Of a stretch of 34,745 nucleotides of DNA, positions 1 through 14,820 are shown in pieces. Within the stretch, counting starts at the first letter, position 1. Every line of letters begins with the position of its first letter. Position numbers and translations under genes: made by a program. Origin of the DNA: Clostridiales bacterium (GTDB lineage: Bacteria; Bacillota; Clostridia; Oscillospirales; RGIG5299); the NCBI GenBank assembly GCA_016281405.1, contig JAEEIO010000160.1, positions 1-34,745 of the forward strand, written 5' to 3'. The notes beneath the pieces were generated by a model that saw nothing but the letters and a program-made list of their open reading frames with translations, was not told the DNA's origin and did not search any database.

Positions 1-161
1 AATGATGAGCCTCCCTTCGGTCGCCATGATGATTTGCGGTTTCACCGCAAAATGATGAAATGAGTTCCGCTTCATGCGCCGAAGGCGCTCATCATTCGGC
101 GAAGCCGTTCATCATGCGCGAAAGCGCTCATCATGTGCCGCACAAGCGGAACTCATCATCG
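1..161. repeat. Array of short hairpins separated by ATGATGA (left part) and TCATCAT (right part) spacers, partly enclosed by a 13-bp inverted repeat
   Basis: Hairpins read directly: TTTGCGGT-TTC-ACCGCAAA (33-51), GCGCC-GAA-GGCGC (76-88), CGGC-GAA-GCCG (97-107), GCGC-GAAA-GCGC (116-127), GTG-CCG-CAC (135-143). Spacers ATGATGA at 2-8, 26-32, 52-58 and TCATCAT at 89-95, 109-115, 128-134, 153-159. Outer arms ATGAGTTCCGCTT (60-72) / AAGCGGAACTCAT (144-156). Confidence 0.9.
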
Positions 162-162
162 G

Positions 163-1095
163 TTATTCGGCGGTCACGCTGAGATTTTTGAAGGACATTT
201 CATGGGTGAAGTTGCCCGAGACCTCGGTGGAAATATAGAAGTTCTGAAGGGCGAGGTCGTCGGCCGTCGTATTCTCGAAGACCTTATGCTTTTTCGCGGC
301 CTCGAGCGCTTCGGCGACGACGGCTTTCAGTTCGACGGTTATCTTATGCCAGTTGCCGTCGTGCATTGAGGAGTCGAGGTAGGCCTTCATATTGGGGCAG
401 TAGATGACGGTGTCGGTGGCGCCCTCGAATCCGCTGTCGACCATAGAGGTCCTGGGAGGGATTCCGAAGCGGTCGTCGAAGACTCTGACGCCGAGCCAGA
501 TAAAGCTGCCGCAGTCATCCGACTGTTCGTTGACGTTTCTCAAAATGAAATAGATATTGGTCTGGGCGCACATAATGTTACGGTTATACTCCTCTGGCGT
601 CATGTGGTTTATAAGCCGGTCGTTTCTCGCCTCGAAGGAGAGGGTCAAGGCGTTATAATCGGTCATTTTAATGTCGTTATCGAAACGCTGTTCGAACATG
701 AGGTGGACCCACGGGTCGGAGGTTTTGGTGCGGACGGTCTCGTATTCGTTGTCGCAGTAGAGCGCGAAGTTAAGGACCGAGGCGCCGTTTTCGTCTTTAT
801 AAACGCGGACCTTTTTGCCCTCGTTTTCGTAGACGACTTCCGTGTCGCTCGATGAGACGAGGGAGTCTCTTTTCATTATGAATCGGCTGTTGTTCTGGTG
901 CATGAACCAGACGCGCTCGCCGTCGGTGGAAAAGGTCCGCAAAAAGCCTATGGACGAGCCTTTGTTGAAGAGCATGAAGCCGTTTTTGAAATCGCAGTCT
1001 TTTAACAGATTGTTCATTTTATTACCTCCGTTGCATGATGAAAGTATTAAAGCGAGGGCGGTTATTACCGTTACGAGCAGGGCTCTTTTTTTCAT
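163..1095 (-). CDS. Putative lipoprotein of unknown function
   Basis: N-terminus MKKRALLVTVITALALILSSCNGGN: basic n-region, hydrophobic core, lipobox LSSC. No family recognised for the mature part. Starts 1 nt after the upstream CDS stop. Confidence 0.85.
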   Translation of the reverse strand: MKKRALLVTVITALALILSSCNGGNKMNNLLKDCDFKNGFMLFNKGSSIGFLRTFSTDGERVWFMHQNNSRFIMKRDSLVSSSDTEVVYENEGKKVRVYKDENGASVLNFALYCDNEYETVRTKTSDPWVHLMFEQRFDNDIKMTDYNALTLSFEARNDRLINHMTPEEYNRNIMCAQTNIYFILRNVNEQSDDCGSFIWLGVRVFDDRFGIPPRTSMVDSGFEGATDTVIYCPNMKAYLDSSMHDGNWHKITVELKAVVAEALEAAKKHKVFENTTADDLALQNFYISTEVSGNFTHEMSFKNLSVTAE

Positions 1096-13713: not shown

Positions 13714-14820
13714 TCAACCCATGAGCTTATTGAGGAGGATGTCGAGGTCGTCGTCGGCGGGAACGGGCTCGGCGGGCTTTTCGGGCTCCGTCTCGGCGGG
13801 CTTTTCGGGCTCGGCGACGGTCTCTTCGGATTTAGGCTCTTCAATGGGCTTGCGGGGCTTCGGGACGTCGTCGAAACCGGAGGCAATGACGGTTATCTTC
13901 ATTTCGTCCTGCATGCTGTCGTCAAGCGAGGTGCCCCAGAAGATGTTGCCGTTTTCGTTGACGGCCTCGAATATCATATTGGAGGCGCGGTAGATCTCGT
14001 CGAGGGTTATGTCGGACGACGAGGTGATGTTGACTATGATGCCCTTGGCGCCGTCGATGGAGGTCTCGAGAAGCTGAGACGAGATGGCCGCCTGAGCCGC
14101 CTGCTCGGCCTTATCCTTGCCCTGGCCGTAGCCGATGCCGATGTGGGTCTTGCCCGCGTCCTTCATGACCGACTTGATGTCGGCGAAGTCGAGGTTGACG
14201 AGACCGGGAACGGTGATGAGGTCGGATATGCCCTGTATGCCCTGCTTTAAGACTATGTCGGCGGTTTTGAAGGCTTCACGGAGTTCTATCTTGCCGTCGA
14301 GAATGCTGATAAGACGGTCGTTGGGGATGACGACGAGGGAGTCGACGTTTTCAAGAAGATTGGCGGTGCCGGCTTCGGCCTGCTGCATCCTCTTTCTGCC
14401 CTCGAAGGAGAACGGTTTGGTGACGACGCCTATCGTGAGGATGTCGAGTTCTCTCGCGACGGCGGCGATGATGGGAGCGGCGCCTGTGCCCGTGCCGCCG
14501 CCCATACCGGCGGTGATGAAGACCATGTCGGCGCCTTTCAAAGCGTCGGCGATGAGTTCGCGGCTCTCTTCGGCGGCGAGACGGCCGATCTCGGGATTGG
14601 CGCCAGCGCCGAGTCCTCTCGAGACCTTCTCGCCGATCTGTATCTTATGGTTGGCGTTGGTCATGTAGAGATCCTGCAGGTCGGTGTTTATAGCTATAAA
14701 CTCGACTCCCTGCACGTTCTCGTCGACCATACGGTTAATGGCGTTTTTGCCGGCTCCGCCGACACCGACTACTTTGATTCTGACGACCTTATTTATTTCT
14801 TCAGCTATCCTAAAAGCCAT
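13714..14820 (-). CDS. ftsZ: Cell division protein FtsZ
   Basis: [47 protein letters not shown]-terminal linker with EPEKPAE repeats; tail [13 protein letters not shown]. Confidence 0.98.
13768..13812 (-). repeat. Two 21-bp direct repeats, 24 bp apart, in the ftsZ linker
   Basis: ctcggcgggcttttcgggctc at 13768-13788 and 13792-13812, encoding EPEKPAE(T)/EPEKPAE(P). Confidence 0.85.

Follow-up and report, generated by a model that had tools for sequence, protein, structure and literature searches.

The window analysed here is the entire contig C208 (34,745 nt); the metagenome-assembled genome to which it belongs (G000) comprises 208 contigs and is 89% complete. It opens with a compact array of small hairpins joined by a constant linker, and the question is what kind of genetic element this array represents and how it came to lie there.

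Layout of the array

Within positions 1-161, three copies of ATGATG precede four copies of CATCAT, with differing self-complementary segments between them (Table 1). Among 20000 first-order shuffles of these positions none reproduced this linker order, which is not a product of chance. An earlier sequence-only reading, which had described differing hairpins joined by a constant linker that switches orientation, was therefore confirmed, with an extent larger than it had noted. Because the window begins at base 1 of C208, the first linker and the first hairpin (ATGATGATTGCCCTGACGGGCAA), both present in the copies on contigs C86 and C71, are absent from the window copy. That reading also placed the array 1-2 nt past the stop codon of a lipoprotein gene. 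The adjacency holds but the spacing does not, the stop codon of the minus-strand ORF occupying positions 163-165 and leaving a gap of 3 nt. The middle segment M exactly complements part of the last hairpin (h6) plus the last linker (R4), which gives the last rung of the structure described below a competing alternative fold.

Table 1. Features of the window copy and its neighbour
Feature	Position	Strand	Basis or remark
Ladder-only element, left end missing	1..159		contig start cuts the copy; complete copies are ~180 nt
Left linker L2, ATGATG	2..7	+	placed by comparison with the full C86 copy
Hairpin h2 (AGCCTCCCTTCGGTCGCC)	8..25		sequence and folding
Left linker L3, ATGATG	26..31	+	sequence
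Hairpin h3 (ATTTGCGGTTTCACCGCAAA)	32..51		sequence and folding
Left linker L4, ATGATG	52..57	+	sequence
Middle segment M, GAGTTCCGCTT	62..72		perfect complement of 144-154
Central hairpin hC, GCGCCGAAGGCGC	76..88		sequence and folding
Right linker R1, CATCAT	90..95	-	sequence
Hairpin h4 (TCGGCGAAGCCGTT)	96..109		sequence and folding
Right linker R2, CATCAT	110..115	-	sequence
Hairpin h5 (GCGCGAAAGCGCT)	116..128		sequence and folding
Right linker R3, CATCAT	129..134	-	sequence
Hairpin h6 (GTGCCGCACAAGCGGAACT)	135..153		sequence; 3' arm able to pair with M instead
Right linker R4, CATCAT	154..159	-	sequence
Neighbouring ORF, 310 aa, lipobox-like N terminus	163..1095	-	outside the element; no Pfam match

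The complete ladder and its predicted fold

The full order of parts was taken from the C86 copy, which is complete, and the C71 copy, which is nearly so: AATGATG-h1-ATGATG-h2-ATGATG-h3-ATGATG-M-hC-CATCAT-h4-CATCAT-h5-CATCAT-h6-CATCATT, about 180 nt in all. The two halves are mutually inverted, with four linkers on the left and four on the right, so placed that pairing is possible from L1:R4 through L4:R1. The complete copy folded with a minimum free energy of -57.7 kcal/mol as DNA (z -7.1) and -84.1 kcal/mol as RNA (z -5.8), and in both cases 0 of 200 shuffles did as well. In the predicted fold the left linkers pair with the right linkers and the hairpins stand out as side arms; on this model a complete copy can form a chain ("ladder") of four-way junctions. 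The inverted linkers could also be protein-binding sites that do not pair with each other.

Copies, forms and distribution

G000 carries eight copies with identities of 73-100%. Three lie at the ends of contigs, where a repeat that breaks the assembly is expected to fall. The ladder-only form is found in the window, on C71 and as one of two copies on C8 (C8b). A longer, gene-less composite form, represented by C86, C120, C157, C8a and C159, adds a hairpin on the right (GCCGACTGTCCTTAAGAACAGTCGGC) and, on the left, a module that includes a terminator-like hairpin of its own. BLAST located relatives in 12 of 59 genomes of the order, and the exact three-linker pattern occurred in 59 of 199, a minority of these matches being coding or simple repeats; a loose two-linker pattern was useless, matching coding repeats in nearly every genome. 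Coding members carry a gene as well, and the named carriers of this form are ruminant and horse gut metagenome-assembled genomes of Oscillospiraceae, Ruminococcaceae and unplaced Clostridia. The expectations that such arrays would be multicopy in this genome and its relatives, and that related blocks would occur in gut Clostridia, were thus borne out by BLAST, pattern search and named carriers alike. The view that this is not a CRISPR array also stands, since the segments between linkers are hairpins and the linkers are inverted, and the ladder architecture together with the repeated copies agrees that it is not a plain terminator.

Three contigs of two genomes (G130 and G079) carry long tandem arrays of CATCATTTGCCGAAGGCAA-type units in a single orientation, with the left half absent. 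A phage origin of the array was rejected, its DNA having no match in phages. Two unannotated human-gut phage contigs carry a ladder together with the gene described below (PF05635), one of them with a tRNA upstream; these may be prophage pieces or bacterial contigs.

Insertion into terminators and movement between lineages

Composite copies have half of a host rho-independent terminator on either side, with complementary arms in G000, G016 and G042. In genome G131, a composite lies downstream of a spoIVB-like gene (a reading by eye from the translated sequence) between the arms AACGCGGAGC and GCTCCGCGTTTTTTT. The same place in the congener G075 reads AACGCGGAGC-GCGAA-GCTCCGCG-TTTTTTT, an intact terminator, with flanks 94% identical, and the terminator at this locus is likewise unoccupied in G200. 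For a second composite copy of G131, too, the orthologous G075 terminator is unoccupied. The composite form, to which these empty orthologous sites pertain, inserts into terminators. No clear target-site duplication was seen in the comparison of G131 with G075. A search of the congener G001 for the flanks of the window copy itself gave no usable empty site, the DNA being too diverged, and ORF clustering of flanks was misled by translations running through the hairpins.

The composite copies of G000 and those of G131, genomes of different families, are 93-98% identical. The seryl-tRNA synthetase encoded in the window shares 91% identity with that of congener G001, 76% with that of G075 and only 67-83% (in two pieces) with that of G131. 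Since the element copies are so much closer than this gene, they must have moved between lineages. The 91% identity to G001 also indicates that the window contig was binned correctly, and misbinning was rejected.

Two observations concern the choice of site. Composites of the two families (G000 C157 and G131 C14) both lie downstream of a spoIVB-like gene, which may be coincidence or reflect a preferred terminator. At eight loci the terminators adjoining the ladder often have the inner stem TTTGTC-NNNN-GACAAA in common, while their outer stems vary; the inner stem is mostly found at tRNA 3' ends and might itself be an insert.

The PF05635 partner gene

The flanks of the relatives led to an ORF of about 115 residues belonging to PF05635 (23S_rRNA_IVP) and TIGR02436 ('four helix bundle protein'), with the solved relatives 2rld and 2gsc. 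To our knowledge, no catalytic activity is known for PF05635. The protein has been called functionally uncharacterized (PMC11270868), and its likeness to Avd of diversity-generating retroelements has been noted (PMC10053308). The usual order at these loci is a gene (often for tRNA or tmRNA), a terminator with its T-tract, the ladder, a sigma-70-like promoter and the PF05635 gene, the ladder ending at the predicted -35 region of that promoter. A tRNA or tmRNA gene ends no more than 320 nt from the PF05635 start in 34 of 58 loci scanned. In 17 of 26 inspected ladders a T-run precedes the first detected linker by no more than 14 nt; in several others a variant first linker had been skipped.

Among unselected PF05635 loci, 19 of 59 had a ladder upstream by a strict exact-linker test demanding at least six of the 4+4 inverted linkers, as against 2 of 590 shuffles, and none was found in downstream controls. 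Among the 80 loci closest to ladder-type proteins, 75 were usable and 56 of these had a ladder upstream (shuffles, 2 of 1500; downstream controls, 0 of 65). This second set was selected for its resemblance to ladder-linked proteins, so its rate does not extend to the Pfam family as a whole. In other PF05635 clades the repeats are one-sided, of a different kind or absent. No such ladder was seen upstream of PF05635 genes from Cyanobacteria, Treponema and a Monoglobus plasmid, which means that not every member of the family is accompanied by one. G000 (89% complete) yielded no PF05635 gene belonging to the ATGATG clade. The one PF05635 gene that it does contain is truncated at the end of a contig and lies closest to an ATGAAG-type protein.

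Several loci show further arrangements. In five, the region after the PF05635 stop repeatedly shows a CAAATCGGGATTTG-(GGAGG) start, which links the gene to one of various single cargo genes (judged by eye to be acetyltransferase-, methyltransferase- or nucleotidyltransferase-like), as though the element had acquired gene cassettes. Another PF05635 clade (six loci) has one-sided hairpin arrays with a GCTAAAT linker and no inverted ladder. At seven loci, long AT-rich inverted repeats (TTACTTATTAC.../GTAATAAGTAA...) lie upstream of PF05635 genes whose products begin M-x-SPL; these repeats adjoin a duplicated terminator half. Two or three consecutive ladders surround the PF05635 gene at two loci, as if insertion had been repeated behind the same tRNA terminator. 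On the Monoglobus pectinilyticus plasmid, a type I restriction system has an unannotated PF05635 ORF between its hsdS and hsdR genes.

Linker types and the protein tree

The linkers of different elements fall into the types ATGATG, GTGATG, ATGAAG, GTGAAGT, RTGAAAT, ATGATAT, GCGATAT, TTATATT-like, TGAATTG and TCATAAC. Whatever the type, the right half always bears the reverse complement of the left-half linker. When the types, assigned by eye and in part grouped, were placed on a tree of 36 proteins, nine changes were needed; this is the minimum for 10 groups, and the shuffled mean was 24.5. The ladder and the PF05635 gene are one inherited unit. Such agreement does not prove that the protein binds the linker, because inheritance as one unit predicts the same.

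One rival explanation starts from here: the ladder would be an operator through which the adjacent PF05635 gene regulates itself, travelling only within larger islands and leaving solo copies as decayed remains. That the ladder ends at the -35 region and that the linker tracks the protein both agree with it. Against it, there are many gene-less ladders, which are inserted in terminators and hardly differ from one family to another, and we regard this explanation as very unlikely. Rather, the array in the window is probably a ladder-only, non-autonomous copy of a mobile element family of gut Clostridia, the coding members of which carry PF05635.

DNA or RNA

The hairpins of 3 bp plus a triloop differ between the two halves. 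The form C(TNC)G occurs 32 times in left halves and never in right halves, and C(GNA)G 22 times in right halves and never in left ones (Fisher p 1.3e-15). Since the halves are inverted, this polarity means that each strand has C(GNA)G hairpins in its 3' half. Mini-hairpins of the C(GNA)G type, above all d(GCGAAGC), are extraordinarily stable as DNA. The term and the class of extraordinarily stable mini-hairpins are discussed in PMC10527192. Taken together, the stability of these hairpins, the place of the ladder between a terminator and a promoter and its two-strand symmetry lead us to favour a ladder that works as DNA rather than RNA.

The contrary possibility arises from Rfam. Halves of three ladders with other linkers pass the cut-off of the Gut-1 model (RF01706), the left half on one strand and the right half on the other. 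The main text of the 2010 description presents Gut-1 as a noncoding RNA candidate from the human gut only (Weinberg et al. 2010, PMC2864571). Like the ladder, Gut-1 has three small hairpins, a constant (A)TGAAAT-like linker and gut bacterial hosts, but it comprises one half only, whereas the ladder has two inverted halves beside terminators and a PF05635 gene. Gut-1 is, in our reading, half of a ladder. The window copy scored 19.7 bits against the RF01706 covariance model, for which the gathering cut-off is 50, and nothing in the window reached gathering. The earlier opinion that no described family could be named is thus correct for the window copy, which falls far below the cut-off, and incorrect for one half of some other members.

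If the ladder were instead a structured RNA, a full-length Gut-1 acting as a noncoding RNA or as a 3' UTR that stabilises or regulates transcripts, it could have been duplicated with a neighbouring gene by recombination. The Gut-1 matches, the RNA folding score and the place of the window copy immediately after a stop codon speak for this, and the suggestion of a structured 3' UTR does suit that copy. It does not suit the usual place of the family, since the ladders of coding members, lying after the terminator T-tract and before the promoter, are outside the predicted transcripts. In addition, the inverted halves give both strands the same design, the loop polarity suits DNA mini-hairpins, and the empty sites indicate insertion. 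We consider an RNA element unlikely.

Comparison with known elements

The mobile DNA element that we prefer was compared with several known systems. Short, non-coding and multicopy, with inverted ends (eight copies, ATGATG...CATCAT) and sites that are empty in relatives (for the composite form), the ladder is MITE-like, as had been proposed. No transposase is linked to it, the linked gene being PF05635, and no clear target duplication was seen between G131 and G075. Inverted small hairpins with short constant flanks in intergenic, multicopy positions are shared with REP/BIME (REPIN) elements, but the REP/BIME-like anatomy suggested earlier was not found: there are three hairpins per half, and the linkers are ATGATG and CATCAT. 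The ladder lacks the single imperfect REP hairpin with a GTAG-like tetranucleotide in inverted pairs and has another linker, more hairpins and another linked gene. The RAYT/TnpA partner that had been envisaged was looked for as Y1 transposase (PF01797), and there were no matches in G000 (89% complete) or G001; a REP/RAYT system was rejected on this absence. More broadly, a classical MITE or REP-like element could have been moved by a transposase (Y1/RAYT or that of another IS) since lost or unassembled here. The short, inverted, multicopy form and the empty sites would suit such an element, but with Y1 transposase absent from both genomes, and with PF05635, whose phylogeny tracks the linker, as the associated gene, we give this explanation little credence.

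Intervening sequences of 23S rRNA that contain the IVP/S23 ORF are also inserts carrying PF05635. These intervening sequences lie in rRNA hairpin loops, and the composite form comparably sits in the hairpin loops of terminators. Ladder loci, however, are terminators or the 3' sides of tRNA or other genes rather than rRNA, and the ladder family has an inverted hairpin ladder before the gene as well as solo ladders. PF05635 resembles Avd, but unlike the case of a diversity-generating retroelement, no reverse transcriptase was detected in the window's genome (PF00078, 0 matches in G000). Group IIC introns insert next to rho-independent terminators; this terminator-adjacent insertion is alike, but the reverse transcriptase is again wanting in that genome. 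On this ground a retroelement, diversity-generating retroelement or group II intron was rejected.

In the open-access literature we found no paper linking PF05635 or Gut-1 to such an element. With reference to that literature, both parts are already catalogued, and what is new is their combination in one element. We rate the combined element as categorically new because each known system tested fails in a defining feature, the MITE corresponding in part.

A possible mechanism and its significance

We suggest that the PF05635 protein, a four-helix-bundle oligomer by family, would bind its own ladder through the linker and the mini-hairpins, the substrate most likely being extruded or single-stranded DNA. 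Binding would mark the element for movement and bring it to hairpin-forming terminators, where insertion would follow. Gene-less copies such as that of the window would have been moved in trans, and the host may supply the catalytic enzyme. A tentative extension, which we put forward as somewhat less than an even prospect, is that these elements form a new mobile class that itself encodes neither transposase nor integrase nor reverse transcriptase. The class would consist of an Avd-like four-helix-bundle protein and a matching palindromic DNA hairpin ladder that inserts at rho-independent terminators, the solo ladders being MITE-like satellites and the Gut-1 'RNA' half of a DNA structure.

PF05635 genes are common and have been without a function since their discovery in rRNA intervening sequences, and Gut-1 has been an orphan RNA candidate since 2010; one mobile element that joins them would give both a testable role. 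It would suggest that Avd-like proteins have a role outside diversity-generating retroelements, namely in binding hairpin nucleic acid, and would describe a safe route of insertion at terminators, either within them or next to them. What is annotated as an RNA may really be a DNA structure, and that annotation would then be corrected. The linker types, each with its own protein, provide ready-made controls of specificity.

Other features of the window

A weak inverted 6-mer match (TCGGCG, 3+3) at positions 14521-14780 falls within coding sequence and was judged to be due to chance. Between positions 1097 and 13698 the window carries sugar-metabolism genes (GFO/IDH/MocA, ThuA, ROK, alpha-L-fucosidase and GH106) together with that for seryl-tRNA synthetase.
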